Below are positions 3,112-21,290 of a stretch of DNA of 22,242 nucleotides, one piece after another. Every line of letters starts with the position of its first letter. The first letter of the stretch is position 1. The notes beneath the pieces were generated by a model that did no database searches, had not been told where the DNA came from, and saw nothing but the letters and a program-made list of their open reading frames with translations. The stretch spans positions 1 to 22,242 of the forward strand of contig LJUY01000046.1 of NCBI GenBank assembly GCA_001304015.1, written 5' to 3'. The position numbers were made by a program, and so were the translations under genes. The stretch is from a candidate division Zixibacteria bacterium SM23_81 (GTDB lineage Bacteria > SM23-81).

Positions 3112-3563
3112 TCGAGCGCCAATTTCAGATGAAGCCAGTTATGTGAGACGGATATGTTCATGCAAATTGTCTTCCGAGTTCGGAATCGTTCCAGACGCCC
3201 AAGTGTGTAGAAATCCCAAGGTGATGCAATAAAGAATGAGCTGTTATATCAAAGGCTGCTTGGTCCAGTTAGCTCGATATATTTTCGAAGAATCGCTTTT
3301 CTCTATCCAACGTCAACGTTGGCTTCGTCTTCAGGGTCTCACGAGAGGTAACAGTATGGATTTTCACGAGGTCGGGAGCGTTGGCCTTTAAAATTATCGC
3401 TATTTTGGCATGATTAATGCATCATTCCTATTATGGTTCCAAAGGATCCTCCAAGAGATATTCGATCCTAATGAACTCATCGCCTTACAGGGTAATACTG
3501 GGTTCATCTTCCAAATCCCAAGGATTCAATAAAAATAAAATAGAAAAGGAAAAAGAATCAATA
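3112..3563. other. Intergenic region before the jelly-roll protein gene
   Basis: No convincing gene was found. The frame of the next gene stays open upstream to an ATG at 3417, but those 49 residues are low-complexity Ser/Lys-rich sequence followed by a signal-anchor Met with its own ribosome-binding site, so I treat them as untranslated. A sigma-54-type promoter candidate lies at 3405-3421. Confidence 0.5.
3405..3421 (+). promoter_or_regulatory. Candidate sigma-54 (-24/-12) promoter
   Basis: TTGGCATGATTAATGCA has GG at 3407-3408 and GC at 3419-3420, exactly ten bases apart as sigma-54 promoters require, and it matches most of the surrounding consensus (TTGGCA at -24, TGCA at -12). A transcript would start near 3432 and carry a leader of about 130 bases before ATG 3564. 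No enhancer-binding activator gene is in the window. Confidence 0.42.
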
Positions 3564-4247
3564 ATGAAAAAACCCATGTTTTCCGTTGTTCCACTTCTTA
3601 TTCTTTGTTTCATATTAGTATTCTATGGATACTCAAAGAATTACTCGAAAAGCTCACAGCCTGCCGCTGTGACGAAAGGACCAGCCGTCGAGATAGACGG
3701 CATAAAATGGACTCAGGTTTTGTATTGGGATTTCGCGAATGGTTCTTATCCAAGTAGCTGGGGCTGGGGAGACTGGGATGTCGTCGATGGGATACTCGAG
3801 GGGCAAGATCCTGATGGCAGCATCTCTGTGTATTTTTTCCCATTCGATCACGACGCAAATTTCATCTTGGAGACAAAAGTTCAGTTCATTCAAAAAACAT
3901 CTATGCATGATGTCGAAGCTCAACTCTTAACCAGAGATAGCAGAAAACTCAACTATGAAAGCGGCATGGTTCTTTTCGCTAAGGAGAACAATGCAACTGT
4001 GCGGCACATGGCCAACAAGATCGACTATGTCTATGAGACCTTTCGAGTTGACATGGAGATAAATTATCGAGAATGGTATGTGATGAAATTTATGGTTTAT
4101 AACGGGCTTGTGAAAGCTTTCGTGAACGATGTCCAAGTATATATTTCAAACAATAGCTTCCCCGTTGGGACATACCACGAACCGCATCTCGCTGTGAAAT
4201 CAGGCATGGCCAAATTCGAATACGTAAAGATTTTGACTGTCAAATAG
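3564..4247 (+). CDS. Exported or membrane-anchored concanavalin/jelly-roll-fold protein (DUF1080-like)
   Basis: A 227-residue protein opening with a Lys-initiated hydrophobic segment (about residues 5-22) that serves as a signal peptide or anchor. No lipobox Cys is in the right place. The rest resembles the jelly-roll sandwich of DUF1080 or laminin-G-type carbohydrate-associated proteins: an opening strand VLYWDFANG with a Trp/Gly-rich turn, then WDVVDGILEGQDPDG, paired strands with alternating hydrophobics, and a WYVMKFMVYNGLVKAFVN segment typical of these domains. I see no catalytic residues I can name, so a binding or structural role is as likely as an enzymatic one. The start was chosen because ATG 3564 has GAAAAGGA 13 bases upstream and begins the hydrophobic segment. 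The YaiO-like barrel gene follows 75 bases after its stop, so the two may be cotranscribed. Confidence 0.65.
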   Translation: MKKPMFSVVPLLILCFILVFYGYSKNYSKSSQPAAVTKGPAVEIDGIKWTQVLYWDFANGSYPSSWGWGDWDVVDGILEGQDPDGSISVYFFPFDHDANFILETKVQFIQKTSMHDVEAQLLTRDSRKLNYESGMVLFAKENNATVRHMANKIDYVYETFRVDMEINYREWYVMKFMVYNGLVKAFVNDVQVYISNNSFPVGTYHEPHLAVKSGMAKFEYVKILTVK

Positions 4248-4322
4248 CAAAAAATCTCTTTTCTGGTCAGCAATTTGCTATTATTTGGCAATGATCAATT
4301 GTTTAAAACAAAGAGGTCTGCT

Positions 4323-5177
4323 ATGAGGGCAAAAAGTTGGACGAACTTAAAACATGGGAGAAAATTTCTCTTGGACAGTTTTTTCCTGGCGTCCTTCTTC
4401 TTGGTCTCAGCTGGAGTGTTTGAGTTTTCCTCTAGCCAGGAGATAGAGGATCAGACGCCGGAAGTTCCTTTAACGCGAGTCATTGAGGTGGGCGGCGATT
4501 ACGGCCATTATTCGGACGATCTGGGCAGCACTAATTCCCAGTTTTTGAGATTCTCAATTGCAAAGCCAGATGTTTATACGTGGCGTTTTGTGACGGGCCG
4601 CGCCTATCGATTCAAGGATGAGGCTTTTGACATCGGCGTCTCGTACACGCGATATCTGCCGGATGGCATCAGCCTCTCACTAGGCATTAGTACAGGCACT
4701 GGCGAGGTTATATCCCCAGAATATCGAGTAGACGCATCCATCGGCATGGCGTTCTTGGAAAAAGATAACTTGTTGGCTTCGGTGGGATACACACGATCAC
4801 AGAGCAAAGCTGAAAACCGTTCTGACGGTGTTGGCCTCGGGCTTACCTACTATATGGATGACCACTGGATCCTGAGCGCTTCTGGTCGGTATGATATTGG
4901 TCAGCCCGGCGAAACGGTATCAACCTCGGGAGGTCTAGGCATCACTTACGGAGTCTATCGCAAAAGATACATAGGTGCAGCAGTTGAGTTTGGGGACGTA
5001 TCCTATCTGCTTATTGGACCCAGTGAGGTATTGGTCGACTACAACAGCACCACCTATAAGTTGTACTTCTCGCACTATCAAACACCCAGCGTGGGTTTTC
5101 ATCTTCGCCTGGACTACGAGCGCAATTCCTTCTACGACTTGGTGGGCGGTTCAATAACGCTGTTCAAAGAGTGGTAA
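4323..5177 (+). CDS. YaiO-like outer-membrane beta-barrel protein
   Basis: A 284-residue protein with a long N-terminal signal peptide (basic residues, then a hydrophobic run ending near VSAGVFEFSSSQ). It is followed by about a dozen alternating-hydrophobicity strands separated by Gly/Asp/Ser turns and ends on an aromatic Trp, as outer-membrane barrels do. Segments such as VGGDYGHYSDDLG, RAYRFKDEAFDIGVSYTRYL and YMDDHWILSASGRYD resemble the YaiO barrel domain. The function of YaiO proteins is poorly known; some lie near surface-glycan genes. ATG 4323 is preferred over an in-frame upstream TTG (4275) because AAGAGG lies 6 bases before it and the hydrophobic segment follows. It is 75 bp after the jelly-roll gene and 74 bp before the glycosyltransferase gene. 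Confidence 0.75.
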   Translation: MRAKSWTNLKHGRKFLLDSFFLASFFLVSAGVFEFSSSQEIEDQTPEVPLTRVIEVGGDYGHYSDDLGSTNSQFLRFSIAKPDVYTWRFVTGRAYRFKDEAFDIGVSYTRYLPDGISLSLGISTGTGEVISPEYRVDASIGMAFLEKDNLLASVGYTRSQSKAENRSDGVGLGLTYYMDDHWILSASGRYDIGQPGETVSTSGGLGITYGVYRKRYIGAAVEFGDVSYLLIGPSEVLVDYNSTTYKLYFSHYQTPSVGFHLRLDYERNSFYDLVGGSITLFKEW

Positions 5178-5251: not shown

Positions 5252-7168
5252 TTGGCGTCCCCACCAAGAGATGTAACCACTCCCGCAGGCAGCGATCCGG
5301 CGTCCGCTGCAAGAACCGCCGCTGCCCGTTCTGGCCTCCTGGCCGCCTTCGCTGGCGTGTCCTGCTTTCTCGCCCTCATCCAGATCTTCTGTGTGTTTTT
5401 TAGCCTCATTGGAATTGCCCTAAACCAGCCTCTGGCAATCATCATTCTCGTTCTCATTCTGATAATTTCCTACCTTTTCGCCACAAGATTCCGAGAACCG
5501 GGAACTGAGCAAGCTCTTACTCCCTCCTCTAAACGAGCCAACCCTCTTTTAACTGGGGTTCTGAAAATACTCGGCATCGGATTTCTGCTCTGGGCCGGAT
5601 GGGTGTGGTTGCAGCTTTGGATTCTGGCCTCATTGCGCCCTCCTTACGACTGGGACGGCCTCTACTATCACATCCCGGCAATCCATGAATGGGTCCTGGC
5701 TGGCCGCGTCTTGTGGATCGGAAATATGATGGATATACCGTTTGTCAGCTATCCCATGGGTGTGGAGGTCTGCACCTTTTTCATGCACCATATCTTTCAG
5801 ACAACTCGTCTTGTTAATGCATGTAACCTGTGGTACTGGCCGCTTGCCTTTCTTGCGGTCGTGGTGATCGCCTCCAGGCTGGGAGCGCGGGGAATTTGGA
5901 AGTGGCTGGCGGGTGCGCTGGTCATTGGGGCGCCCGTTTTCATCAGCCAGAGCGTAAGCTGCTATATTGATATCGGCTTTGCCAGCGCTGTCATGGCAGC
6001 CATAGCCGCCTCATGCATTTTTGTCTTTCATAAAGAACTGTCACTATGGTATAAAGCAATCCTTTTCGCGGCCAACGTTGGGCTTGCAGCCGGCTCCAAG
6101 GGGACAGGCCTGCCCTTCGCCGCCGTCTTCTTCGCTGCGGTCATAATTGGCCTTCTCTGCGTCTATGGTTTCAAATATTGGAAGACGTGGCGCAGACAAA
6201 TTCTTATCGGCGTGCTCATCGTGCTGGCTATTGGTGGATACTGGTACGTGCGAAACACGATAAAAACAGGCAATCCCATTTATCCCTTGCAACTTAAGTT
6301 TGGTGTAAATGTGCTCATCGAGGGCTACGATCATGTGCTTTTCAATGAGGCCAACATGCCTCCCTGGCTCGAAAAATACCCGCCCCCGACGCGCATGTTT
6401 ATCTCCTGGCTTCAGCTGGACGCACCGATTTCCAGCTACGCGCCGATAGGGGGAATGGGGTACATCTGGATTGCCGGTGCCCTACCTGCCTTTTTCTTCT
6501 TGTGGATACAAATTCTGCGAAAACGTAGGAGCACTGTCTGTCCCATCGGCGAGTTTGCCTTTTTGACAGCCCTTGTCCTGACTCTCCTCATCGTACAACC
6601 GGCAGCATGGTGGGCACGATTCACCCTCTGGCTGCATGCTCTTGGTCTCCCCTGCTTTGCCGTAGTGCTCCATCAAGTGGTCTCCAGATGGCCCATGGCG
6701 AAGAGAAGCTTTATCCCGGTCCTCATAGGCTTCCTGGTTATCTGCGCTGCGATTTGGGAATCTCAAAAAACTCTGCAAATCGAGTGGAAGACAGGGCGGA
6801 TTCCGCAAGCACAAGGCACTTTCGGAAAGTTTTTATCCAGCCAGGAGTATATGTTTCCGGGAATGGCGGAAACTTCAGGTTTTAAAGCTTTTCTAAGGGC
6901 AAGAAAAATCGCCCGCAGCCCTTGGGGTCGGATGGGCACCCTCCTGGGTGGCGTTCTCGCGATGCCGCTGGGCCAGCGAGAAATACGAGTTCTCCCAAGG
7001 GAGCTCGAATTTGAGGACATCTCATCGCTGCGAGAAGCTGGAGTTCAATGGGTGATATGGGACGTTTTGGGTGCCGGAGAGGTCCCAGAGATCCTCACCC
7101 GGGAGGCTCAGGAAGAGCATGCATATCACCCGGCCCATGATGTGAACTGCCATATTATCCGCCTATGA
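5252..7168 (+). CDS. Multi-membrane GT-C-fold glycosyltransferase (PMT/ArnT-like)
   Basis: A 638-residue integral membrane protein with about 11-13 hydrophobic helices and a soluble C-terminal stretch from about residue 520. After two N-terminal helices comes PPYDWDGLYYHIPAIHEWV, which resembles the first periplasmic loop of GT-C enzymes, where an Asp near the membrane face is catalytic. Further on, GYWYVRNTIKTGNPIYP is a pattern shared by many uncharacterised GT-C proteins. Such enzymes move a sugar from a polyprenyl-phosphate donor onto a lipid, glycan or protein at the outer face of the inner membrane. The TTG start at 5252 is preceded only by a weak CCAGGTG; no better in-frame start exists before residue 160. 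The N-terminal 40 residues are Ala/Ser/Pro-rich. It is placed upstream of the synthase genes, though a 0.7-kb gap separates them. The donor and acceptor cannot be read from sequence. Confidence 0.78.
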   Translation: MASPPRDVTTPAGSDPASAARTAAARSGLLAAFAGVSCFLALIQIFCVFFSLIGIALNQPLAIIILVLILIISYLFATRFREPGTEQALTPSSKRANPLLTGVLKILGIGFLLWAGWVWLQLWILASLRPPYDWDGLYYHIPAIHEWVLAGRVLWIGNMMDIPFVSYPMGVEVCTFFMHHIFQTTRLVNACNLWYWPLAFLAVVVIASRLGARGIWKWLAGALVIGAPVFISQSVSCYIDIGFASAVMAAIAASCIFVFHKELSLWYKAILFAANVGLAAGSKGTGLPFAAVFFAAVIIGLLCVYGFKYWKTWRRQILIGVLIVLAIGGYWYVRNTIKTGNPIYPLQLKFGVNVLIEGYDHVLFNEANMPPWLEKYPPPTRMFISWLQLDAPISSYAPIGGMGYIWIAGALPAFFFLWIQILRKRRSTVCPIGEFAFLTALVLTLLIVQPAAWWARFTLWLHALGLPCFAVVLHQVVSRWPMAKRSFIPVLIGFLVICAAIWESQKTLQIEWKTGRIPQAQGTFGKFLSSQEYMFPGMAETSGFKAFLRARKIARSPWGRMGTLLGGVLAMPLGQREIRVLPRELEFEDISSLREAGVQWVIWDVLGAGEVPEILTREAQEEHAYHPAHDVNCHIIRL

Positions 7169-7679
7169 TCAGGTCAACTGCTGCAGATCCAATCGATTTG
7201 ATGCAGATGCCCCATGCTACAATTCTGTTCGGGGTTAAGAAGAAAGAGAAACGTTCGCAATCAAGCCCGCTGGTCATGCCTACAATAGGTTGCCCTGCAA
7301 CGATTTTTGCCGCATAGCCTTTTTTCTGGAGACCCGATAGCTATTCGGCTGGTCTAGATATACGATGAAACGAGGAAAAGGCATAGAATTTGCTGCTTTA
7401 AGCTCCTGAATATTATGGCAATTGTCATTTATGAAGAGCTTTAAAAGGCCTTTCGTTACGAAGATTGCTGCTTTTGCCTCCATCTCATTGGGTATGTTAC
7501 CCGATTCGAGCTACATTCTGCCTTTTAGAGGAGGTAGATACACCTATAACTTTTTCATCCGGTTCTTCAGAGAGATTCTTTTTTGCTCTTTTGGCAGGAT
7601 ATACAGCACAAAGCAGAGAGAAGAAAAATATTCGAACTGCCGGTTTGCTCACACCTCAGTGATCTCGGCAATAAAAGGC

Positions 7680-7708
7680 TTGACAAAAAAACCCGCCTAT
7701 GATAGAAT
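7680..7708 (+). promoter_or_regulatory. Candidate sigma-70 promoter for the synthase operon
   Basis: A perfect TTGACA (7680-7685) is followed after 17 bases by TAGAAT (7703-7708), four of six matches to the -10 box with optimal spacing. An overlapping TATGAT (7698-7703) would be too close to the -35 box. Transcription would start near 7715, giving a leader of about 180 bases before the membrane-protein start. Confidence 0.55.
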
Positions 7709-7801
7709 GAAAATTGATCTGTGACCTCTTGGCTGAACATACAAACCATATGTTACTTACTGAAGCGGGAACTACAAGGCTCTCGCAGAAACGCATATAG
7801 A

Positions 7802-7850
7802 AAGGATCGGATCATTTTTCACCGCGCCCACTAAAGGCTTTCCCGTGTTA
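7802..7850 (+). repeat. Imperfect copy of a coding segment found at 8097-8144
   Basis: About 47 bases here match 8097-8144, including an exact 13-base core TTTTTCACCGCGC (7815-7827 and 8110-8122). Read in the matching frame the upstream copy encodes KDRIIFHRAH then a stop, against KDRIFFHRAY in the membrane protein. The similarity is therefore at protein level too and points to a partial duplication. Confidence 0.55.
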
Positions 7851-7892
7851 GAGAGTAGATCATGGCGCGGTTCGTCTTGTGGGGGAATCATC

Positions 7893-8867
7893 GTGTCATC
7901 AACCTTTGTCTTCTCTAGAATATTTACCCACAGCTTTTTCGCTTTGCTACAGGGCAACTTGTTAGGCTCCAGAATTCACGCCCAGATGTGGGACGATTTC
8001 AGCCATAACGGAATGGGTCTGATGATGCCATTTGCATTAGCCATGGCCCTGGCCCCTCTGTCAGCCCAGCTCTTGGAAAAGTTGCGGTTCCTCTTTAAAG
8101 ATCGAATCTTTTTTCACCGCGCTTACAAGAAACTTCCCCATTTCAGCGTGTGGACCATGGCAAAACTGCTCTTGCTTGTGGGGATCTTGGATGTGTTGAT
8201 ATTCATTTATCACAGGGAATTAACCCATGGTTTTGTCACGATGGTTCGCGGCATCCTTCTGCGGTGCGGTATCTATACGGATTTGCTGTACTGGCCTTTC
8301 CTGCCGGTGGTGATCAGGAACATGCCCATCCTGGATTCAGCCTGCTTATTTCCCTCCTGGCATCTGGCTCTGTACACCCTCGTGGTGGCGCTTGTGATCA
8401 TCGTGATCTTACCGCGGCTATACCGCATACCCAGAGCCATAGTGGTCTATTTTGTGTTGCTCTCGCTACTGAACGTAGCCTCCGCAGCCTTTTTCCTCTT
8501 GGCACCCCACCGATTTCCCTACGACATCGCCGACTTCTCAATGCTATACATGGGCACTCAACTCGGCATGTGGTTACTCATCCCTCTGGTGCTGGCGGTA
8601 GTCCTGGCACCTTTGCCGGCCTACCTCTTTGAAAAGCTGCTGGTCATCTTCCTGACCGTAGTCTATGCAGTGACTTTTGGGGCGATTCGCTATGCCGCTT
8701 TACTCTACCTGCTAAATAAAGTGACCGTCTTGTACATGGCGGCTATGTTCTTCGCCGTGGGACCGCTGATCGACTTCTTTTACGTGGTGGCTATCTATTC
8801 GGTTTACGTCAACATACTCGCGCTGCGTCTGCAGAAAGCTCAGGAGATCTGGCGATGGTTGTTCTGA
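7893..8867 (+). CDS. Multi-membrane protein with internal duplication, coupled to GT2 synthase
   Basis: A 324-residue polytopic inner-membrane protein with about 7-8 hydrophobic helices. I do not recognise the family. It contains a clear internal repeat: an early segment DFS..GMGLMMPFALAMALAP followed by LSAQLLEKLRFLF, and a later one DFS..LGMWLLIPLVLAVVLAP followed by LPAYLFEKLLVIF. Each begins with Asp-Phe-Ser and ends with a Leu-Glu/Phe-Glu-Lys amphipathic turn. Between them is YWPFLPVVIRNMPILDSACLF, a polar-edged stretch that could line a channel or active site. I chose GTG 7893 because GGGGGA lies 6 bases upstream; an in-frame GTG at 7845 would add 16 residues without a good ribosome site. 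The stop overlaps the GT2 start by 13 bases, so the two products are made together. It could be a polymer-export or synthase partner subunit. Confidence 0.72.
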   Translation: MSSTFVFSRIFTHSFFALLQGNLLGSRIHAQMWDDFSHNGMGLMMPFALAMALAPLSAQLLEKLRFLFKDRIFFHRAYKKLPHFSVWTMAKLLLLVGILDVLIFIYHRELTHGFVTMVRGILLRCGIYTDLLYWPFLPVVIRNMPILDSACLFPSWHLALYTLVVALVIIVILPRLYRIPRAIVVYFVLLSLLNVASAAFFLLAPHRFPYDIADFSMLYMGTQLGMWLLIPLVLAVVLAPLPAYLFEKLLVIFLTVVYAVTFGAIRYAALLYLLNKVTVLYMAAMFFAVGPLIDFFYVVAIYSVYVNILALRLQKAQEIWRWLF

Positions 8868-10138
8868 TCCTCAAACTCTACATTATCCTGGTCGTATTGG
8901 TCATGTCAATCTACGCGTTCCGGCACTACTTGTTCACCATCAACCGGCTTGGTGGGGAGCAGAGGCTGTATTACCAGGATATCGTCGATTCGGACCTACC
9001 CACAATCTCAGTCCTGGTCCCCATGCACAACGAGGAAAAAGTGGCTCGGCAGTCCCTCGAGGCCATTCTGCACTGCGATTATCCGCGGGAAAAGATGGAG
9101 ATCATTCCCATCGAGGACCATTCCACCGACGGCACCGAGGAGATTCTAAGGGAATTTGCCGCTAAACATGAGCTAATCCAACCTCTTTACCGCCAAGATG
9201 GGAAGAGGGGTAAGCCGGCGGCCCTAAACGAGGCTCTAAAGGTCGCTCGGGGAGAGATCATCCTGGTATTCGACGCCGATAACCTGCCCACTAGCGGAGC
9301 GTTGCGTGACCTCGCTATTTCCTTCAAGGACCCCGAGGTTGGGGCGGTCATGGGGCGAGTGATCCCCATTAACACTCGCAGCAACCTTTTAACCCGCCTT
9401 TTGGACCTCGAACGCAGCGGCGGCTACCAGGTCGACCAGCAGGCCCGCCATAACATGAAGTTGATACCACAGTATGGCGGGACAGTGGGCGGCTTCCGTC
9501 GCGAACTGGCCCTGGCCTTGGGTGGCTTCGATCCCAAGGTGTGTGCCGAGGACACGGAACTAACCTTCAGGCTGTTCATCAGAGGATGGAAGGTGGTTTA
9601 CGCCAACCGAGTAGAGTGCTTCGAAGAGGTGCCCGAAACATGGCGGGTGCGATCCCGGCAGATCCGGCGCTGGTCACGGGGGCATAATTTAACCCTTTTC
9701 AAGCATCTCGGCTCTCTACTCCGTTCTGATTTCCTGAGTCGAAGAGAGAAAAGAGACGGTCTGTTGCTGCTGATGATCTACACCGTGCCGGTCTTCCTCT
9801 TCGCCGGCATCGTCGATTCGGTTATTCTGTTTTTTCTAGGAGAAATGCAAATCTTCGAGAGCTTGCTTGTATTCCTCTACGTGGCAGCTTATAACTCCTT
9901 TGGCAATTTCGCCCCTTTCTATCAGATCGGCACTGCGTCATTGCTAGATGGTATAACTCATCGTATCCGCTTGTTGCCCTTCCTGATGTTCTACTTTGTG
10001 TTGAACATCTGGACCATAACCACGGGCTTCTTCCTCGCCGTCAGCGATCGGGTCCGGAATAACCAAGAAGCTCCGACTTGGCACAAAACTCAGCGGTTTG
10101 GAAATAACAATCACTTAAACAACAATAACCTATCATGA
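8855..10138 (+). CDS. Processive family-2 glycosyltransferase (polysaccharide synthase)
   Basis: A membrane GT2 enzyme of the cellulose/chitin/hyaluronan synthase kind, which links sugars from a nucleotide-sugar on the cytoplasmic face and feeds the chain through the membrane. A single N-terminal helix (about residues 3-24) precedes the catalytic domain. Its signature residues are all present: Asp88 in PIEDHSTDGT, the DxD at 140-142 (VFDADN), Glu232-Asp233 in AEDTEL as catalytic base region, and QIRRW at 269-273. A C-terminal set of three or four helices follows, ending near residue 400. The tail has the WHKTQR pattern common in bacterial synthases, then an Asn-rich end. There is no PilZ domain, so no sign of direct c-di-GMP control. 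ATG 8855 has AGGAG 8 bases upstream. It overlaps the genes on both sides. The sugar is unknown; an N-acetylhexosamine is likely given wecB downstream. Confidence 0.88.
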   Translation: MVVLILKLYIILVVLVMSIYAFRHYLFTINRLGGEQRLYYQDIVDSDLPTISVLVPMHNEEKVARQSLEAILHCDYPREKMEIIPIEDHSTDGTEEILREFAAKHELIQPLYRQDGKRGKPAALNEALKVARGEIILVFDADNLPTSGALRDLAISFKDPEVGAVMGRVIPINTRSNLLTRLLDLERSGGYQVDQQARHNMKLIPQYGGTVGGFRRELALALGGFDPKVCAEDTELTFRLFIRGWKVVYANRVECFEEVPETWRVRSRQIRRWSRGHNLTLFKHLGSLLRSDFLSRREKRDGLLLLMIYTVPVFLFAGIVDSVILFFLGEMQIFESLLVFLYVAAYNSFGNFAPFYQIGTASLLDGITHRIRLLPFLMFYFVLNIWTITTGFFLAVSDRVRNNQEAPTWHKTQRFGNNNHLNNNNLS

Positions 10139-11391
10139 AAACCTACTTTCTAACATTACTGGCAATTGTGCTTATCACATCTCTCGGGATTCCTACAAGT
10201 GCTCAGGAACAAGATTCGAGGGAATTGGCGGATTCAGCGGCTGTGGCTGATTCAGTGGCCGCGGACGCAGCCGCTGAACCCTACCGATCCTGGACACCTT
10301 TTTTGCTGCTATCCGTCTTTGTGCTGCTTATCATCATCCCTTTCATGCCGGGCTTTATCGAGGTCACCATCCCAAAGGACAGGTATCCGCTGCCGGTAAA
10401 GAACACGAGATACGCCAAAGATCCGCGCTACCTCGGCAAATCGGCGCGACGAATCCTCGCTGAGGCTTTGGAGGGCAAAATCCTAGAGGATGGCCAGCAC
10501 GCGGTGCTGATGTCCAAGGAGGAAACCCTCGACGTGAGCGACCAGATGGTGGTACCCATCAACGAGAGAGTCGAAAACGTCCAGTACGTTCGCGACGACT
10601 TACAGACCGAGGCCGGCGTTCGATTCAACAAGGAAGTTTTTGTAGGTGGCAAAGCGCACATCGGAGCCAAGAGCCGGCTGAGAACCCTGGCCTGCGACGG
10701 CGCCGTGACCATGGGTGAGGAAACTCGGGTGGCGCGCTGGCTTGATGCCGAGGGAGAAATCACCGTAGGTGATGGCTGCAACTTGGGAGTCAGCGCGGCG
10801 AGCCCGCGGGGGATCAGCTTGGGTGACCGAGTCCAATTCAAACGGCTCTTCGGCAATCCGGTGACTACGCCGGATTACATCGGCAGGGAAAATACCCAGC
10901 CTTCCACCGAACCACCCCGAGGTGCTAAGATCCCCAACAAGATCCGTACTATTAAAGACACCCTCGACCTGCACAGGAGAAACTTGACCTTGGCCGAAGG
11001 TGAGGAGCTGGAAGCAAACTTAGTGGTCAAGGGGGATCTGACTTGCGATGAGGGATCACGTCTCAGGGGTTCGGCTAAGGTCTACGGCTCTACGGTGTTG
11101 AAAAAGAACGCTATGGTGATGGGCGATATTTTCAGCGAGGGACCCGTCACCGTGGGCAAGGGCGCTGTGGTTTTGGGCAACATCTTCTCCCAAGACGCCG
11201 TCAAATTACTGCCTGGCGCTCGCCTTGGCCGCGAAGGGGCGCTCAAATCTGTCATCGGCAAGAAGGAAGTCCATATTGCTCAGAACGTCTCCATTCATGG
11301 CTATGTGCTGACCGAAGGCCGGGGAAGGGTTGTGCGTGAAAAAAGCTCCTCATCACGTCGCTCTCAGCCATCTGACCATATTGGGGCATAG
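10135..11391 (+). CDS. Membrane-anchored bactofilin-like beta-helix protein
   Basis: A 418-residue protein. An N-terminal signal peptide (residues 1-23, ending TSAQ) is followed by a short acidic Ala/Asp-rich segment (24-50), a transmembrane helix (about 54-75) and a basic stretch. Two right-handed beta-helix blocks follow (about 130-250 and 285-395), built of short repeats rich in Gly, Val and Asp such as VKGDLTCDEGSRLRGSAKVYG and VTVGKGAVVLGNI, as in bactofilins (polymer-forming cytoskeletal proteins). A Pro-rich linker splits the blocks. Basic residues right after the helix predict that the beta-helix faces the cytoplasm. Bactofilins polymerise and place cell-wall or polysaccharide enzymes. 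The start overlaps the GT2 stop as ATGA, with no ribosome-binding site of its own, so translation is coupled to the synthase. A role as synthase scaffold is inference. Confidence 0.78.
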   Translation: MKTYFLTLLAIVLITSLGIPTSAQEQDSRELADSAAVADSVAADAAAEPYRSWTPFLLLSVFVLLIIIPFMPGFIEVTIPKDRYPLPVKNTRYAKDPRYLGKSARRILAEALEGKILEDGQHAVLMSKEETLDVSDQMVVPINERVENVQYVRDDLQTEAGVRFNKEVFVGGKAHIGAKSRLRTLACDGAVTMGEETRVARWLDAEGEITVGDGCNLGVSAASPRGISLGDRVQFKRLFGNPVTTPDYIGRENTQPSTEPPRGAKIPNKIRTIKDTLDLHRRNLTLAEGEELEANLVVKGDLTCDEGSRLRGSAKVYGSTVLKKNAMVMGDIFSEGPVTVGKGAVVLGNIFSQDAVKLLPGARLGREGALKSVIGKKEVHIAQNVSIHGYVLTEGRGRVVREKSSSSRRSQPSDHIGA

Positions 11392-11701
11392 CTACTTTCC
11401 CACGAATAGGCCAGCAGAGCTGCTGGCTACAATCGGCATCCAGGATAATGCTCATACAAGTACATGAAAATTATGAAACAAAAGCATTAGTTGGCGGTTG
11501 AGCCTCGGTTCATTTCTGTTCAGATTCTCACCTTCTCCGCATGAGGGTTTTGGATACACTTCATACGATCTGGCCCGAATAAAGAAATGGGGTGTCACGC
11601 TCCCGGAACTGGATCATCGGTCAACTGAAAGCTAAATCGTCTCCCGCAACACAGCTCCTCCATGGGTGCAACGCTAGCCGCATTGGAAGGTGGTGGGCTC
11701 A
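11392..11701. other. Intergenic region between bactofilin gene and wecB
   Basis: Apart from the hairpin near its left end nothing definite is seen. A frame running into a TAA near 11634 reads like protein for about 30 codons (SYDLARIKKWGVTLPEL) but has no start codon or ribosome site; it could be a relic of an older gene. Confidence 0.35.
11407..11429 (+). repeat. Strong hairpin just after the bactofilin gene
   Basis: TAGGCCAGCA (11407-11416) pairs with TGCTGGCTA (11421-11429) around GAGC, leaving one bulged G. It begins 15 bases after the stop codon. No T-run follows, so it is not a classic intrinsic terminator; it may protect the 3' end of the mRNA or pause transcription before wecB. Confidence 0.4.
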
Positions 11702-12877
11702 ATGGCCAAAGTCGCCTTTATCTTTGGAACCCGACCAGAAGCTATCAAACTCTGTCCCGTTATCCTCGCATTCCGAGATAACTCCAGCTTGCAATCGCGT
11801 GTCTGCGTTACAGCTCAGCACCGTGCTATGCTCGATCAGGTACTGACTGTATTTGGGATAGTCCCGGACGTGGATCTGGATCTGATGCGATATAACAAGT
11901 CTCTGGGATCGCTCACCTCCCACACCGTGAACGCTCTGGACGGCTATCTGACGGACGAGCAGCCTGATTTAGTTCTGATCCAAGGGGACACCACCACGGT
12001 CTTCTGCGCCGCGCTGGCAGCCTTCTACCACCACATCGCAGTGGGGCATATCGAGGCTGGTCTGCGCACTGGCACCAAATTCTCCCCCTTCCCTGAGGAG
12101 ATTAATCGGGTGATGGCCTCCGTGGTGGCTGATTTGCACTTCGCGCCAACGGAGCTATCCCGCCAGAATCTGCTAAGGGAAGGCGTGCCAGCCGAGAGAA
12201 TTCTGGTAACCGGCAACACAGTTGTCGATGCCTTGCTATTTGCTCGATCCCGCGTCCGCAGCCATCCGCCGGCTATTGCAGGCCTGCCGGCCGAGTTGGA
12301 AACGCCGCGGGCAGAGCGACCTTTGGTCTTGGTAACCAGCCACCGCCGTGAGAACTTCGGAGCGGGCTTAAGGTCCATCTGCCGAGCCATCGCCACCCTG
12401 GCGAAAAAATTCCCCACAACGGACTTCGTCTACCCGGTACATCTGAATCCCAATGTCCATCAGCCGGTGCACAATCTACTGAATGGCCGACGGAATATCC
12501 ATCTAATCGAACCTCTGAGCTATCTGCCCTTCGTGGCCTTAATGGACCGCGCCTCTCTGATCCTCACAGACTCGGGTGGGGTGCAGGAAGAGGCGCCCAG
12601 CTTGGGTAAGCCGGTGCTGGTGATGCGTGAGAGCACTGAAAGGCCCGAGGCACTGGAAGCGGGAACGGTTCTGCTGGTGGGAACCGACCATGAAAAGATT
12701 GTTGCTGAGACGACCCGCCTATTAACTAACCGTGCGGCATACGAGGCCATGGCCCGAGCCCACAACCCTTATGGTGACGGCAAGGCCAGTGACCGCATCG
12801 TAGCCGCCTGCCAGGATTTCCTGGCTGTAAAGAGTTTTAGAATTATCAAGCCGAGGATCAGCTCGAGGCTCGCATGA
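11702..12877 (+). CDS. wecB: UDP-N-acetylglucosamine 2-epimerase (non-hydrolysing)
   Basis: Interconverts UDP-GlcNAc and UDP-ManNAc in the cytoplasm, the supply step for ManNAc- and ManNAcA-containing surface polymers. The family motifs run in order: FGTRPEAIKL at residues 8-17, QGDTTT, VGHIEAGLRTG, PFPEEINRVM, VTGNTVVDAL, VTSHRRENFG with the His-Arg-Arg-Glu cluster, YPVHLNPNV, and LTDSGGVQEEAPSLGKP, which with RESTERPEA binds the UDP phosphates. Length (391) is normal. I chose ATG 11702 because GGAAGG and GGTGG lie just upstream; a GTG at 11690 would add only four residues. It is 310 bp after the bactofilin gene on the same strand. No UDP-ManNAc dehydrogenase (WecC) is in view, so ManNAc itself may be the sugar used. 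The enzyme call is firm and its use by the nearby synthase is inference. Confidence 0.93.
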   Translation: MAKVAFIFGTRPEAIKLCPVILAFRDNSSLQSRVCVTAQHRAMLDQVLTVFGIVPDVDLDLMRYNKSLGSLTSHTVNALDGYLTDEQPDLVLIQGDTTTVFCAALAAFYHHIAVGHIEAGLRTGTKFSPFPEEINRVMASVVADLHFAPTELSRQNLLREGVPAERILVTGNTVVDALLFARSRVRSHPPAIAGLPAELETPRAERPLVLVTSHRRENFGAGLRSICRAIATLAKKFPTTDFVYPVHLNPNVHQPVHNLLNGRRNIHLIEPLSYLPFVALMDRASLILTDSGGVQEEAPSLGKPVLVMRESTERPEALEAGTVLLVGTDHEKIVAETTRLLTNRAAYEAMARAHNPYGDGKASDRIVAACQDFLAVKSFRIIKPRISSRLA

Positions 12878-13988: not shown

Positions 13989-15578
13989 TCAGCACATATC
14001 CCCATATACACGATAATCTATTCTGGGAAAGATGTTGTCCTGACCCTCGATCTCCCCCAGCCAGCGCTCGTCAATCTGGCCGTTCTTAGTATCCCGATAG
14101 AGTTTTAGGAATCGGAGGATGTGATCCCTGGTCCGGTTTACAGCATATGGGGCCACATCCCCCGTCTTCATCATGAAAGCCCAATCGCTGCTTTGAGCCA
14201 GAAGAAGCTCCCGGGCCGCCTGATTGAGGGCTCTGGTCTCCAGGGGGGTGGGCTGCACCTTCTCGTTGGCCAACTCGGTCATCCTCTCCGCAGCTTTATG
14301 CAGGTGCCGGTAAATCCAGTTGTTACTCCCCTCAAGCCACACTTCGTGATAACCCTTATACCCCCAGCTAGACGCCGAAGGAGTGGTCACTTGGTGGGTA
14401 GCATAACGCTGTAGGTATTCGCTGGGTGTGATCATCTTGAAAACCGTCTGATCGAAAGCTGCCTTGCGCAATAGCATCTCAAGCCACTCTGGCCCCTCAT
14501 ACCACCAATGGCCGAAAAGCTCCGCATCGTAAGGGGCTATTACTATGGGTGGTTTGTCCATAAAATCGCGGAGATACTCGATTTGTCGCTCTCGATTGAA
14601 CATGAAATTTCCGGCGTGTTCGTTGGCCTTTTCCCACCCTTTTTGAGGCACATAGGGCTGTTTCTCATCGGTTTTCCCGGTAATGCGATAATACTTGATG
14701 CCGGTGAAAACCCGAATTCCATGACTCCCAAGGTAAGGGCGAATGTACTCGTATTCCAGATCAAAACCGATATCCCGGTAGAAATCCCTATACCAGTAGT
14801 CTCCAGGGTAACCCCGTTCGACGCTCCATACTTGCTTAGAGGATTCCATGTCCCGACCGAAGGCAGCTACTCCCGAAGGGCAGTAAATAGGTGCAAATAC
14901 CCCAAACTTGGGGCGAGGAGAGGCATGAAGGATGCCGTGAGTTTCCGTAATAAAATACTCGATGCCTTCTTCCTTGAGCACCTGGTCGATTCCCGGCTCA
15001 TAACCGCACTCAGGCAACCAGATGCCTCGGGCTTGACGTCCGAATACCTGTTCATACTGCTGAATGGCCACTCGCACCTGCGCTCTCAGGGCGGGACGAT
15101 GGCCATTCATCAAAGGCAGATAGCCGTGAGTGGCAGCACAGGTGAGAATCTCCAACTTACCTGTCTCTTGAAGTTGCCCGAAGGCTGATACCAGATTTGC
15201 ACCAAATTCCTCCAAGAATCTCTGTCGGGCGCTGGTGAACTTCCCATGATACATGAGGGCAAGTTCGTGGAACTCCTGCTGCCACCGCGTGCGCATGACT
15301 TCTTTCTCGGCGAGCTCAATAAGCTTCTCCAGATGGCGGGCATAGCGGTCCTGCAAAAGGGAGTCTGTCAACATAGAGATCAAAGTGGGTGTCAGAGAGA
15401 GGGTCACGCGAAAGTCGACTCCCTCGGCGGACAGACGAGTGAAGGATTCTAACAGGGGGATGTAGGTCTCTGTGATGGCTTCGAAAAACCAGTTTTCCTC
15501 CAAGAAATCGGGATGCTCCGGATGACGAACGAAAGGAAGGTGCGCGTGGAGCACCAAACACAGATACCCTTTCTCCAT
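13989..15578 (-). CDS. GH57 1,4-alpha-glucan branching enzyme
   Basis: A glycoside hydrolase family 57 enzyme that makes alpha-1,6 branches in glycogen by transglycosylation in the cytoplasm. The N-terminal (beta/alpha)7 barrel opens with LVLHAHLPFVRHPE, holding the HAHLP motif of the family. GIWLPECGYEPG carries the nucleophile at Glu190, and VIAPYDAELFGHWWYEG the acid/base at Asp351. HAGNFMFNRE and SDWAFMMKTG in the C-terminal helical region match branching enzymes of the Thermus/Thermococcus type (DUF1957 domain). Length (529 residues) is typical for that group. The start is firm: ATG at 15578 with GGAGGG about 12 bases upstream, lying inside the end of the DUF4912 gene, whose stop is 7 bases away. 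The two genes are thus coupled. A strong terminator follows the stop. Confidence 0.92.
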   Translation of the reverse strand: MEKGYLCLVLHAHLPFVRHPEHPDFLEENWFFEAITETYIPLLESFTRLSAEGVDFRVTLSLTPTLISMLTDSLLQDRYARHLEKLIELAEKEVMRTRWQQEFHELALMYHGKFTSARQRFLEEFGANLVSAFGQLQETGKLEILTCAATHGYLPLMNGHRPALRAQVRVAIQQYEQVFGRQARGIWLPECGYEPGIDQVLKEEGIEYFITETHGILHASPRPKFGVFAPIYCPSGVAAFGRDMESSKQVWSVERGYPGDYWYRDFYRDIGFDLEYEYIRPYLGSHGIRVFTGIKYYRITGKTDEKQPYVPQKGWEKANEHAGNFMFNRERQIEYLRDFMDKPPIVIAPYDAELFGHWWYEGPEWLEMLLRKAAFDQTVFKMITPSEYLQRYATHQVTTPSASSWGYKGYHEVWLEGSNNWIYRHLHKAAERMTELANEKVQPTPLETRALNQAARELLLAQSSDWAFMMKTGDVAPYAVNRTRDHILRFLKLYRDTKNGQIDERWLGEIEGQDNIFPRIDYRVYGDMC

Positions 15579-15585
15579 ACGCTCT

Positions 15586-16677
15586 TCACCCTCCCTGAGA
15601 ATTTCTCTTGGGGTCCTTTCGTATAGTCGGCTTTAGCACCCGGGTGCTTTTCTCCACGATGGGAATCACAGTACGCTCTTCGAGTCCATCGGCGGATGTG
15701 GATGTCACGGGAATGGATTGTCTGCCGTCGGGCAAAGCCAGGCGAAAGGAAAAGGTACCATCGGCTCTCAATGAAACGCGCTTATCCCCCACTTTAACCT
15801 CGGCATCCGGCTCCGTGGACCCGTACACCACCAGTTCCGTGTTCAGTTGGAAACGAAATCGTCTCCCCCTGCGGCCCAGATAACCGCTCCACATGCCCCA
15901 ACTGCCAACAGCCCCGGAGGCCATCTCCCCTTGCAGCAGCCTTTCCAGCTTTTCCCGAAGTTCAAGGGAGCTTTCTCCCATCCGCAAACCACCCGAAAGT
16001 GCATACATCTTCTCATAGTCTACCTGTCGGCTCATCCAGGCCTCGTCCAACACATCGGACATGCCGCTGCGAGGAGTGGTCACCACATTGGATTGAGCCA
16101 GAGCCGTAAAATGGTCTTCCCCAGACAACAGTCCGATCTCAACATAGTAAGAACGATCGGCATCGGGAACCTTAATGTACCAGTTATCTGCCCCTGGGGT
16201 GATGACGATGTCGAAAATCCTCTGGGCCTTCTGACCATTGTCGTCTCGGCCGTCCACCTGGTAAATCCTCAGCGCTTTTCTGGCCTCCCCCAGCCCGGAG
16301 CCCAAAGAGGCCAGAATCTCCTGGAGCCGTTGGGGAGTAATCTCCCAGTAGGCGAAAATCCAGTATGGATCTCGAACCATCAATACGATTCTATCATCAC
16401 CATAAGCCGAAGGAAGCTCTTGAGGAAGCTGATCGGGTAATTCTTGTGGTGATTTGCGAACATCATACTTGGCTGCCTCTACTCTTTGCTCCTCTAGATT
16501 CTGAATTTCTGGGGAGAAAGGCTGGGAAATGGTTGAAAAGGCAGCGTGATTGATCTTACCCCAGAGATGGTGCACTAACTCCTTCTTGGTCATGGATCGC
16601 CATTTAGGGATCCCAATCTGTCGAGCCATAACCTGGAGCTCTTTCTTTGTCTTGGAGTGTAAATGTCCCCGGGCCAT
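15586..16677 (-). CDS. DUF4912 domain protein coupled to the branching enzyme
   Basis: A 363-residue protein with no signal peptide. The first 45 residues (SKTKKELQVMARQIGIPKWRSMTKKELVHHL) resemble a Rho-N/SAP-like helical fold of the type that can bind nucleic acid. Residues of about 95-205 fit DUF4912: DDRIVLMVRDPYWIFAYWEI, then a helix and strands ending DNWYIKVPDADRSYYVEIG. A C-terminal beta-rich segment (ELVVYGSTEPDAEVKVGDKRV) looks Ig-like and ends in a basic tail. DUF4912 genes are often found beside GH57 branching enzymes, and the 7-base gap here says the same. A carbohydrate-binding or regulatory role in glycogen metabolism is inference. ATG 16677 has GGAGGG about 9 bases upstream. 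Confidence 0.82.
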   Translation of the reverse strand: MARGHLHSKTKKELQVMARQIGIPKWRSMTKKELVHHLWGKINHAAFSTISQPFSPEIQNLEEQRVEAAKYDVRKSPQELPDQLPQELPSAYGDDRIVLMVRDPYWIFAYWEITPQRLQEILASLGSGLGEARKALRIYQVDGRDDNGQKAQRIFDIVITPGADNWYIKVPDADRSYYVEIGLLSGEDHFTALAQSNVVTTPRSGMSDVLDEAWMSRQVDYEKMYALSGGLRMGESSLELREKLERLLQGEMASGAVGSWGMWSGYLGRRGRRFRFQLNTELVVYGSTEPDAEVKVGDKRVSLRADGTFSFRLALPDGRQSIPVTSTSADGLEERTVIPIVEKSTRVLKPTIRKDPKRNSQGG

Positions 16678-18275: not shown

Positions 18276-19091
18276 CTACTTTGCGCCCTCCGAAGCCATG
18301 TGGACCACACGCTGTGGGAAGGGAATCTCGATGCTGTTCTCGTCAAAAGCCTCCTTGATCTTGCGAGTGAGATCGAAGTATACAGACCAATAATCTTCTT
18401 TCTTAACCCACGGACGAACCACGAGATTAACGCTGGAGTCCGCCAGCGCAGCGACGGCAATCTGGTGAGCTGGTTCGGACAATATTCTGGTATCTTCTTT
18501 AATGAGCTTTTCGAGAACTTCTATAGCTTTTTTGATAGAGGAATCATAGCCGATGCCGACTTCAAGGTTTATTTTCCTGGTATCATAGGCCGTGATGTTC
18601 TTGATAGTATCACCGAAGATCTTGCTGTTGGGCACAATAATTTTGATATTATCTGGCGTGGCCAATATTGTGGTGAACAGCTTGATCTCCTTCACCGAGC
18701 CTGCTACGCCGGCAGCGTCGATGAAGTCCCCAATTTTATATGGCCGGAAAAGAAGGATCATCACGCCGGCAGCGAAATTGGACAACGAGCCCTGCAATGC
18801 AAATCCTATGGCGAAGGTTGCAGCGCCTAATACGGCAACAAGGGAGGCCGTCTCCACGCCGAACTTTTGCAGCACGGCAATGATGACGAAAACAATGACC
18901 AGGGCGTATACCAGGCTGCCGGCAAAGGAGACGATGGACTTGTCCGTATTGGTCCTGGTCAGTATCTTCCGCACGACCTTGCGCATAATGCCTGCCGCGA
19001 TGCGACCGATGATCAAAATGAGAATGGCGCCGATGACCTTCAATCCATAGACGGTGGCCAACTCGGTCAATCTCTCAACTACGTTTTCCAT
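18276..19091 (-). CDS. MscS-family small-conductance mechanosensitive channel
   Basis: An inner-membrane channel that opens under membrane tension to release solutes on osmotic downshock. The 271-residue protein has three N-terminal helices (about residues 15-35, 54-76 and 80-110). The pore helix shows the Gly/Ala-rich pattern VAVLGAATFAIGFALQGSLSNFAAGVMILLF. FRPYKIGDFI begins the cytoplasmic beta domain, followed by IIVPNSKIFGDTIKN and the alpha/beta C-terminal domain ending near IPFPQRVVHM, all family landmarks. Length is close to that of E. coli MscS. ATG 19091 follows AAGGAGG at ideal spacing; an upstream in-frame Met (19130) has no such site. The MscL gene lies 270 bp upstream on the same strand, which suggests a shared osmotic-stress role. 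Confidence 0.92.
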   Translation of the reverse strand: MENVVERLTELATVYGLKVIGAILILIIGRIAAGIMRKVVRKILTRTNTDKSIVSFAGSLVYALVIVFVIIAVLQKFGVETASLVAVLGAATFAIGFALQGSLSNFAAGVMILLFRPYKIGDFIDAAGVAGSVKEIKLFTTILATPDNIKIIVPNSKIFGDTIKNITAYDTRKINLEVGIGYDSSIKKAIEVLEKLIKEDTRILSEPAHQIAVAALADSSVNLVVRPWVKKEDYWSVYFDLTRKIKEAFDENSIEIPFPQRVVHMASEGAK

Positions 19092-19150
19092 AATATCCTC
19101 CTTTCTTCTTTGAATGGGTAACTCGTGCAATGATATCCATTTAGATAAAC

Positions 19151-19244
19151 TTGTCCCTCAATCCCAAGGTTCCCACCGGTGATAATACTCAGCCCTCTGT
19201 GCGCTGATTTCTCCCAACTGACCTGTCGTCCAACTAGAGGGACA
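19151..19244 (-). repeat. Spaced inverted repeat in the MscS leader
   Basis: TGTCCCTC (19151-19158) and GAGGGACA (19237-19244) are perfect complementary arms 78 bases apart, in the gap between the MscL stop and the MscS start. They could close a structured 5' leader. I recognise no known riboswitch in it. Confidence 0.3.
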
Positions 19245-19361
19245 GATATCTCATCCTTCAGTGAGACAAATAGGCGCATGGAGGGCTGGACTCGGGCCTC
19301 AGCAGCTGTCGGCATTGAACCGTCATTAACGGATTGGTGAGCTCGTCGAAAACAACCAGGT

Positions 19362-19817
19362 TTAGGCCGCACCCAGCTCAGATGTGCAGAACGCACAACG
19401 AGTGGCCTTAATCGGGATAGTGGACAGACATTTGGGACACTCTTTGGTGATCGGCTCGGCCGGCGGTGCTTCCTCTTTTTTCTTGAGTTTGACGAAATTG
19501 CGGACGATGAGGAAAACGCAGAAAGCGACGATGATGAAGGTGATCACGGTATTGATGAACACGCCGTAGTTTATCGAAACCGCACCCGCCGTTTTCGCGT
19601 CAGCCAGGGCTGCGTACGGACCGGCTATGGTCCCCTGTTTCAGAATGATGAACAGGTTGGTGAAATCCACATTGCCTAACAGCAATCCGATGGGGGGCAT
19701 GATGATATCTTCAACCAGTGATTTGACGATGGTGGCGAAAGCGGCGCCAATGATGATGCCCACGGCCATGTCAAGCACGTTGCCTCTCATGGCAAATTCT
19801 TTAAAATCCTTTAGCAT
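19362..19817 (-). CDS. mscL: Large-conductance mechanosensitive channel with zinc-ribbon tail
   Basis: A pentameric inner-membrane safety valve. The N-terminal helix and TM1 read [20 protein letters not shown] through [12 protein letters not shown], the signature region of MscL; TM2 spans about residues 84-107 ([21 protein letters not shown]). The end differs from the E. coli protein: after a Lys/Glu/Pro-rich linker it carries CPKC (Cys127, Cys130) and CAFC (Cys141, Cys144), a zinc-ribbon-like module. Length is 151 residues against about 136 in E. coli. The start is firm: ATG 19817 with GAGAGGG 5 bases upstream. It lies between the DUF3078-like gene (about 90 bp upstream) and the MscS gene. 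The channel call is certain; that the cysteines bind zinc is inference. Confidence 0.95.
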
Positions 19818-19906: not shown

Positions 19907-20794
19907 TCAGATCAGCTTATAGGTTAAGCCCAGAGACAAGGTCTGCTTGAAACGTCCTCCTTTGTCCACCTCCTTATCGTAGAGAATTTGTGTGTAGAGA
20001 TTCACCATCAGGTATTTGGTAATACTGGCTGTAAAGATGTTCTCCCAGTTGACATCGGGGGATTCCCAGTAATCTTCGTTAGGTTGGCCCTTGAGCGCAT
20101 CATCCTCGGAATAGAAAAGCGCTTGAAAGACGGTGAGCTTACTAGAAATAGTAATTCGCTCCTGAGCTATGGGAGATTTGAACTCGCTGACGAACTCGAG
20201 GCCGCCGTCGTTGGAAGTCTGGGTTTCTCGTTTATCAGCCTGAGGATCCACCAGAACATCGCGGTTCACATGCTGCCTCAGGGCTGCACCCAAGCGGTTT
20301 GACCACTCCCGCTTGTCCTCCTTGATGAAGAACTTGATCACCCCAAAGCTCTCGGTGAAATTGAGGGGATTGAGATATCGATTCTTCTCAGGGTCGCTGG
20401 CGTCGAGAAACTGGCTCTCCAGCCGGCCAGCCACAAAGGGATCGGCGAATGCCCCCAACGTGAAGTTGAAAAGCGTCTCAAAGTCAATGAGATCTGTTGA
20501 CTTAGTAGGTTTGGCCCAGTTTTTAGTTTCCTTATCCTGGTTGTGATTTTGACCAAAGGAAAGCTTGAGGGCATTTTTAGTGTGAACTTTGGGGCACAGC
20601 TTCCGCTCAGCCAAGGAATTGGAATTGAAAGTCCAGGAAAGATTTCCAGCTTCACCCCCCGCCCAGTTGTCGCTGTATGCCGTCTGGGCTAAGGTCAGGT
20701 TGGCGTCCACGGATCTGCTCCATTGATCGGCCGCCACAGCAGTGGTCACAAAGAAAGCCGCCACGACAGTCAGCAAAATGATGGATATTCTCAT
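19907..20794 (-). CDS. DUF3078-like outer-membrane beta-barrel protein
   Basis: A 295-residue exported protein. The signal peptide covers about residues 1-22 (MRISIILLTVVAAFFVTTAVA) with cleavage before ADQW. The mature part opens with LTLAQTAYSDNWAGGEAGNLSW, very like the start of DUF3078 proteins of Bacteroidota and relatives. The remainder is a run of amphipathic strands (LKLSFGQNHN, FTLGAFADPFVAGRLESQF, ITISSKLTVFQALF, LMVNLYTQILYD) ending in Tyr-Lys-Leu-Ile, consistent with an outer-membrane barrel. Its substrate is unknown. The frame is open upstream to 21220, but that stretch overlaps another gene and has no signal peptide; ATG 20794 has GGAGG 5 bases upstream and begins the signal peptide. 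It is 47 bp after the four-helix protein gene and probably cotranscribed with it. Confidence 0.78.
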   Translation of the reverse strand: MRISIILLTVVAAFFVTTAVAADQWSRSVDANLTLAQTAYSDNWAGGEAGNLSWTFNSNSLAERKLCPKVHTKNALKLSFGQNHNQDKETKNWAKPTKSTDLIDFETLFNFTLGAFADPFVAGRLESQFLDASDPEKNRYLNPLNFTESFGVIKFFIKEDKREWSNRLGAALRQHVNRDVLVDPQADKRETQTSNDGGLEFVSEFKSPIAQERITISSKLTVFQALFYSEDDALKGQPNEDYWESPDVNWENIFTASITKYLMVNLYTQILYDKEVDKGGRFKQTLSLGLTYKLI

Positions 20795-20841
20795 TCTTAC
20801 CTCCGCACTGAAATAGTCAACTCTTTGGTTCTCTCGATAGC

Positions 20842-21204
20842 TCATGATGACCACGAACGCACTGCACGAACGCACTGGCAGAAACCATAATAGTTGGCGC
20901 AGAGACCGCCCATCACCGAGAACAAGCCCCAGAACAGGGGACGAAGGAAGATATGTGCCAGAGTCGGCTGCGCATAGGGCAAGAGATAGATTCCCCAGGC
21001 GATCAGAAAACAGCCCAGCACGATGCACATGTGGCCGAAGATGAGAAAACCTCTCCGGCCTCTGCGCACATTCAGAAAAACAAGGCCGCAGCCGAGGAGA
21101 AGGGGTATGATGCCCACAGGCCCGTTGCCAAAAGCCAGCAACAAGATCCCCAAGATTACCAGGAGAATACTCAGAATAAAACCAATGGCGCCATTCTTTT
21201 TCAT
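20842..21204 (-). CDS. Small four-helix membrane protein
   Basis: A 120-residue integral membrane protein with four predicted helices at about residues 6-24, 28-45, 54-76 and 86-107, joined by short loops; the loop after helix 2 (RRGRRG) is strongly basic and should be cytoplasmic. No family is recognised. Cys residues cluster near the end (ANYYGFCQCV). The ATG at 21204 follows AAGGAGAGG with good spacing, which decides between this frame and the longer overlapping frame of the DUF3078-like gene. The barrel gene follows after 47 bases. Confidence 0.7.
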   Translation of the reverse strand: MKKNGAIGFILSILLVILGILLLAFGNGPVGIIPLLLGCGLVFLNVRRGRRGFLIFGHMCIVLGCFLIAWGIYLLPYAQPTLAHIFLRPLFWGLFSVMGGLCANYYGFCQCVRAVRSWSS

Positions 21205-21290
21205 ATCCTCTCCTTTTCACGGCGTAAGGGCACCCGAATGGAATACCGCTTTTGCTCAGGTGCGCCTGACCCCTCTTGGGTCCCTGTATG

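Follow-up and report, generated by a model that had tools for sequence, protein, structure and literature searches.

A candidate synthase-dependent exopolysaccharide locus with a bactofilin-like protein in candidate division Zixibacteria and other bacteria

Introduction

What is made by a gene set in which a polysaccharide synthase is translated in overlap with an unnamed membrane protein and a bactofilin-like protein, and do such genes form one system? The question was raised by contig LJUY01000046.1 (assembly GCA_001304015.1) of the candidate division Zixibacteria bacterium SM23_81, of which positions 1 to 22,242 were analyzed (hereafter, the window). The three genes encode the membrane protein (MEM), a family 2 glycosyltransferase (GT2), and the bactofilin-like protein (BAC). 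The original prediction, made from the DNA letters alone, held that they constitute a single system that makes and places an amino-sugar polymer, with a GT-C enzyme encoded before them and WecB after them.

We suggest that the window gene set, as a whole, is best explained as a synthase-dependent exopolysaccharide system, and we assign this interpretation a probability of roughly 0.7. Synthase-dependent exopolysaccharide secretion is already known as a kind, as is a WecB-dependent GT2 that operates with an outer-membrane barrel (Nfr). No description of this gene set as one system was found in the open-access literature, and, as far as that literature shows, the MEM-GT2-BAC unit, the unnamed MEM family, the near-universal bactofilin-like neighbor of the synthase, and the breadth of its distribution are new.

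Results

Conservation of the Three-Gene Unit

In the window, the open reading frames (ORFs) of the three genes lie on the forward strand (7845/7893-8867, 8855-10138, and 10135-11391) and, as first described, overlap by 13 and 4 bases. A single scan of genome contigs with the window GT2 yielded 80 loci, a few of which share a genome, and neighboring genes were called by six-frame profile searches of those loci. More than a dozen phyla are represented in the record titles, and the loci include Gemmatimonas, Fibrobacter, Latescibacterota, Cloacimonadota, Zixiibacteriota, Aquificales genera, Nitrospirae, and Aminicenantes, together with Acidobacteria, Elusimicrobia, Armatimonadota-type genera, Eremiobacterota, Sulfurovum, Dictyoglomus, Firmicutes, and Actinomycetes. 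MEM was directly upstream of GT2 in all 72 loci with room for it, and BAC was directly downstream of GT2 in 72 of 73 loci. Since these loci had been picked by GT2, a second search was conducted with the MEM profile alone. Among 386 genomes, eight carriers were identified, including the window genome, and the cluster contained GT2 and BAC in all seven others (the seventh was read at locus L060, and two of the seven are from one genus). The proposal of a single system thus withstood a test of adjacency begun from either gene.

MEM and GT2 overlap by 10-19 nucleotides (nt) in 66 of the 77 measurable loci and have an identical frame offset in 77 of 81; the overlap is a conserved translational coupling. 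Apparent fusions of GT2 with MEM, and of BAC with a deacetylase that is considered below, proved to be artefacts of ORF calling in which the frames differ. Separately, a contig labelled Micrarchaeota (L041) carries a Firmicutes-type cluster and is probably mis-binned.

The Synthase

The GT2 (8855-10138, forward strand; 427 aa; PF13641, 107 bits) is of the processive polysaccharide synthase type and retains all of the catalytic residues ascribed to it (D88, DAD at 140-142, AEDT at 231-234, and QIRRW at 269-273), motifs that are near-invariant among 77 family members. A processive GT2 with DxD, (T/A)ED, and QxxRW is a defining feature of synthase-dependent exopolysaccharide systems. The best named NCBIfam match was PgaC/IcaA (TIGR03937), at 131.5 bits against an equivalog cut-off of 422.3, and the CelA equivalog scored 69 against 699 bits. 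A profile of the family gave 181 bits for PssC-type synthases of Listeria, 109 for PgaC, and 5 for NfrB; at that score NfrB was rejected as a GT2 relative and is treated as a functional precedent only. YaiP of Escherichia coli was likewise rejected as a close relative. In the GT2 tree, sequences from Cupriavidus and Escherichia fell among the family, and PgaC, YaiP, NodC, BcsA, and NfrB were placed on very long branches.

The Membrane Protein and Its Decayed Copy

MEM is an unnamed inner-membrane protein of ~261 aa that belongs to the conserved core. Its homologs are ~250-270 aa in length (at least 230 aa in 71 fetched loci) and begin near the residues KDRIFFHR, so that the conserved gene is placed at about 8082-8867 on the forward strand, though the frame is open upstream to 7845. 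The original prediction saw a duplicated membrane protein. An internal duplication was rejected, as the repeat stems from a second, tandem copy of the gene (7802-8081, forward strand) that has decayed, has lost part of its sequence, and lies beside the intact one. Positions 7802-7866 match 8097-8161 with 74% identity over 65 nt, and tblastn recovered matches to MEM residues 6-31, 34-68, and 162-186 that are broken by stops, a frameshift, and a deletion. The ORF appears duplicated because the last part of the decayed copy shares the reading frame of the intact gene.

The view that MEM is unrecognized held: the window protein had no meaningful Pfam or NCBIfam match, and a search of 68 family members against Pfam returned scattered single matches only. 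The AlphaFold2 model (pLDDT 91.7, pTM 0.86) comprises six helices and an extracytoplasmic helix or hairpin, and two near-invariant residues, R203 and D231, lie in the membrane region. Collectively, these features make MEM a natural candidate for the translocation partner of GT2.

The Bactofilin-Like Protein

BAC (10135-11391, forward strand) is membrane-anchored and has two beta-helices, the second of which has the bactofilin fold: residues 281-395 of the AlphaFold2 model (pLDDT 86.7) match bactofilin BacA (2n3d) with a Z score of 12.2 and a root mean square deviation of 2.6 over 102 of 103 residues. Hydrophobic segments at residues 5-23 and 57-75 agree with the signal peptide and membrane helix first proposed. 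We term the protein bactofilin-like because its score on PF04519 (19.9 bits) is under the Pfam gathering cut-off (27.9 bits); matches to PF04519 at E<=0.01 were obtained for 46 of 53 members of the BAC family. In two loci (L034 and L041), BAC is fused ahead of a transmembrane helix and a DHHW domain, and in a third (L082, 11328-13352) a single open frame with no stop between encodes BAC followed by a signal peptide and a YaiO barrel. These fusions are most easily accounted for if the helix domain of BAC is cytoplasmic, and it is predicted to lie on the same face of the membrane as the catalytic domain of GT2.

Roles in cell shape and in wall synthesis are common among bactofilins (PMC10259793), and BAC adjoins the synthase in all but one of the loci where this could be read. 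Thus, BAC might direct an envelope or shape glycan, such as a wall or sheath component, to a set place, with morphology rather than a secreted matrix as the main function. However, the genes that accompany the unit (YaiO, a deacetylase, and a hydrolase, or a DHHW/CotH/VTC set that is shared in part with Gram-positive Pel clusters; PMC7112168) point to the export and modification of an extracellular polymer, and we give a primarily morphological role only a very slim chance.

Probable Outer-Membrane Exit and Accessory Genes

The original prediction implied that an outer-membrane partner was absent, but a YaiO-family beta-barrel, a probable exit channel, is encoded at 4275-5177 on the forward strand, just outside the region that it covered (PF19413, 49 bits; TIGR04390, 89.2 against a cut-off of 32; 172 bits with the YaiO profile of the clusters). 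An outer-membrane barrel is a further feature of synthase-dependent systems in diderms, and YaiO, which was detected in many other loci of the family, would supply it. Within the Firmicutes, YaiO was identified in the diderm Sporomusaceae (L011 and L012), whereas no monoderm locus has it, a pattern that would be expected if it is an exit through the outer membrane. In L016 and L021, which are also from diderm Firmicutes, YaiO is not recognizable, and a protein of 599-617 aa with no family assignment is encoded at that place. This ~600-aa protein follows the hydrolase (L016, 14910-16709; L021, 7814-9667) and is a possible alternative exit protein. Immediately before the window YaiO, by 27 nt, is a gene for a 276-aa protein (3417-4247) with an N-terminal hydrophobic stretch and a weak match to 3-keto-disaccharide hydrolases (concanavalin-like), which could bind the polymer.

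In diderms, the loci are often extended by genes for a CE4-like deacetylase, a hydrolase of six-hairpin type, YaiO, and WecB, whereas most monoderm Firmicutes loci have DHHW, a transmembrane protein, VTC, DUF4956, and CotH in place of YaiO and the deacetylase. The deacetylase protein is ~600 aa, with matches to PF01522 (CE4-type) in 17 of 25 sequences. The hydrolase is ~300 aa and matches six-hairpin glycosidases weakly; its assignment by sequence to GH126/PssZ was rejected, as this was not among its matches in the PDB. In locus L025, the two enzymes are joined in one protein.

Neither enzyme was recovered in the window genome (92.6% complete) by single-sequence or profile searches, and the possibility that they are encoded elsewhere in that genome was rejected. 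The window also contains a 638-aa polytopic protein (5252-7168, forward strand; ~12 hydrophobic segments), the possible GT-C enzyme that was originally counted as part of the system. Its NCBIfam and Pfam matches are sub-threshold, with no confident family in either. No relative was found in the other fetched loci; it was rejected as a member of the system and is probably a window-specific gene outside the core. The broken MEM duplicate, the missing deacetylase and hydrolase, and this insertion could together mean that the window copy is decaying and no longer works as a system here. However, the frames of MEM, GT2, BAC, WecB, and YaiO are intact, GT2 keeps its catalytic motifs, and many relatives also lack the deacetylase. 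We therefore regard decay as having a slim chance.

Shuffled Relatives in Cupriavidus and Escherichia

Relatives of the set occur with their genes reshuffled. A Cupriavidus plasmid has the order WecB, deacetylase, GT2, BAC, hydrolase, YaiO, MEM, and a conjugative plasmid of E. fergusonii (L090, 3581-10206) has BAC, WecB, YaiO, MEM, acyltransferase, hydrolase, GT2. The cluster of E. coli NCTC8623 (L092, 11669-18580) is similar, with its own WecB and acyltransferase, and lies near fimbrial and integrase genes. Clusters of this kind are rare in E. coli, with two chromosomes concerned, one of which (AH19B041) has the cluster only in part. These plasmids and chromosomes carry GT2 relatives, 48%, 40%, and 41% identical for the three sequences compared, or the matching start of the cluster. 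A polymer-forming cytoskeletal protein, WecB, and YaiO are annotated there, and a MEM relative was identified by hhalign (97.6%, E 4e-12). In E. fergusonii, this relative is the 243-aa gene; a 355-aa protein was rejected as MEM and has a weak match to the hydrolase profile (31 bits). Because the gene set survives reshuffling, these clusters are strong evidence of a shared function.

Which Sugar May Be Polymerized

WecB, a UDP-N-acetylglucosamine (UDP-GlcNAc) 2-epimerase that would supply UDP-N-acetylmannosamine (UDP-ManNAc), follows the three genes as predicted (11690-12877, forward strand; TIGR00236, 485.9 bits against an equivalog cut-off of 210). WecB was detected in 41 loci, many loci being cut by contig ends, and in all proteobacterial clusters examined. 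The Escherichia clusters have their own WecB, and E. coli has a chromosomal wecB in the enterobacterial common antigen locus (PMC8669469). At the genome level, WecB is encoded by eight of eight carriers, compared with 66 of 98 genomes overall, and the window copy scores highest of the three in its genome. Two precedents bear on the substrate. The Listeria Pss polymer consists of beta-1,4-ManNAc carrying galactose branches (PMC10172500), and NfrB/NfrA depend on WecB, their product probably being a ManNAc polymer (PMC8669469, PMC8669472). The recurrence of WecB in the clusters and a family profile that scores PssC, a ManNAc polymer synthase, above PgaC support the amino-sugar polymer originally proposed. 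Given these two observations and the two precedents, UDP-ManNAc is the likeliest donor, though not a proven one.

The same machinery could instead make a polymer based on GlcNAc (PNAG- or chitin-like) or on a mixture of GlcNAc and ManNAc, with WecB feeding another pathway or part of the repeat. PgaC/IcaA is the best NCBIfam equivalog of the window GT2 (131 bits), the deacetylase and hydrolase resemble the logic of PgaB, and no WecB is close by in about half of the loci with full flanks. Nevertheless, the PgaC match falls far short of the 422-bit cut-off, the scores of PssC-type synthases are higher, and clusters from different phyla, as well as the Escherichia islands, repeatedly include a dedicated copy of WecB. 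A GlcNAc-containing product is thus unlikely, although its chance is appreciable.

Several observations count against a ManNAc-polymerizing, YaiO-dependent exopolysaccharide system. WecB is within ~10 kb in only 16 of the 33 fully flanked loci, its presence at the genome level is weak evidence because WecB is common, and two further copies are encoded in the window genome. PssC is only ~30% identical, a distance at which sugar specificity is unreadable from sequence, and the GT2 tree has long deep branches. In the window, YaiO is encoded 4.4 kb upstream of GT2 and the GT-C gene intervenes, and we found no demonstrated transport function for YaiO. MEM has no confident fold match in the PDB (no Foldseek match at E<=0.001; best VIA Z score 6.9 over 55 residues), which is not proof of a new fold.

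Other Genes of the Window

Elsewhere in the window, a GH57 alpha-glucan branching enzyme is encoded beside a DUF4912/Rho_N protein (13989-16677, minus strand), genes for MscS- and MscL-type mechanosensitive channels adjoin (18276-19817, minus strand), and a 437-aa protein has a DUF3078 domain (19907-21220).

Discussion

A working model of the exopolysaccharide system can be proposed. WecB would convert UDP-GlcNAc to UDP-ManNAc, and GT2, with its catalytic domain in the cytoplasm, would polymerize ManNAc processively. The chain would cross the inner membrane through GT2 and MEM, the role of the latter being likened to that of PgaD or BcsB in other systems, while BAC, anchored on the cytoplasmic face, may gather or position the synthase. 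In other diderms, the deacetylase and the alpha/alpha-type hydrolase would trim the chain in the periplasm, and YaiO would be its exit through the outer membrane. The window polymer may stay fully acetylated, since neither trimming enzyme was found in that genome. Of this model, the gene content, the overlaps, the conserved linkage, the bactofilin fold, and the family assignments were observed, and the substrate, the nature of the polymer, a physical complex, the export direction, and the function of BAC are inferred.

More tentatively, and with odds a little short of even, the loci may represent a widespread, previously undescribed type of exopolysaccharide machinery whose synthase has a bactofilin-like cytoskeletal protein as an obligatory subunit and whose product is a ManNAc homopolymer, distributed among diderms and monoderms, including gut species, and carried on mobile islands in Escherichia. 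If the exopolysaccharide interpretation is true, a further synthase-dependent system would join those for cellulose, PNAG, alginate, Pel, and Nfr. With a bactofilin next to the synthase in nearly all loci, whether bactofilins organize polysaccharide synthases becomes directly testable. The interpretation also predicts a function for YaiO barrels and a ManNAc surface polymer in the cultured Sporomusa malonica and Phascolarctobacterium faecium. In E. coli, the NGR glycan, which is of the ManNAc type, acts as a receptor for phage (PMC8669472), so polymers of this sort may have that function elsewhere.

Comparison with Known Systems

Among the closest known systems is Listeria Pss (PssA-E, PssZ), with full-length GT2 relatedness of ~30% (181 bits), a ManNAc polymer (PMC10172500), and an (alpha/alpha)6 hydrolase, PssZ (PMC7479077). 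In contrast to the loci described here, Pss uses a BcsB-like PssD and a cyclic di-GMP receptor, PssE (PMC4125290), and the annotated neighbors of the L. innocua homolog include neither MEM nor BAC nor WecB. We identify that homolog as PssC because a BcsB-like gene comes next, as in pssC-pssD (PMC4125290). The N4 glycan receptor NfrB/NfrA of E. coli similarly combines a GT2, an outer-membrane barrel, and WecB dependence (PMC8669469, PMC8669472), the WecB link in our loci being a genomic association only. However, NfrB has a cyclic di-GMP-binding MshEN domain at its C-terminus, whereas the 427-aa window GT2 has no extra domain; NfrA is a barrel with tetratricopeptide repeats (TPR), and no MEM or bactofilin has been described with them.

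The poly-N-acetylglucosamine (PNAG) systems PgaABCD and IcaADBC share a GT2 of similar size, a small membrane partner, and deacetylase and hydrolase domains, which are fused in PgaB as they are in locus L025. Their GT2 is distant (109 bits), MEM has six predicted helices in ~261 aa compared with 137 aa for PgaD, and BAC and WecB are extra. When MEM was compared with PgaD/IcaD, it had no Pfam or NCBIfam match of weight and no clear match of fold. Cellulose synthase (Bcs) shares a processive GT2 with QxxRW but, in agreement with the original prediction that this is not a standard cellulose-type system, BcsB, BcsC, and PilZ were absent from the Pfam matches of the window genes scanned.

The E. 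coli YaiS-YaiP-YaiX-YaiO locus likewise clusters a GT2, a putative acyltransferase, a YaiO barrel, and a deacetylase, but YaiP is 24% identical over 257 aa and no MEM, bactofilin, or WecB is annotated there. Finally, Gram-positive Pel clusters use a different synthase set (pelDEADAFG), yet have CotH, a VTC-like poly-phosphate polymerase, and DUF4956 in common with the Firmicutes loci (PMC7112168).

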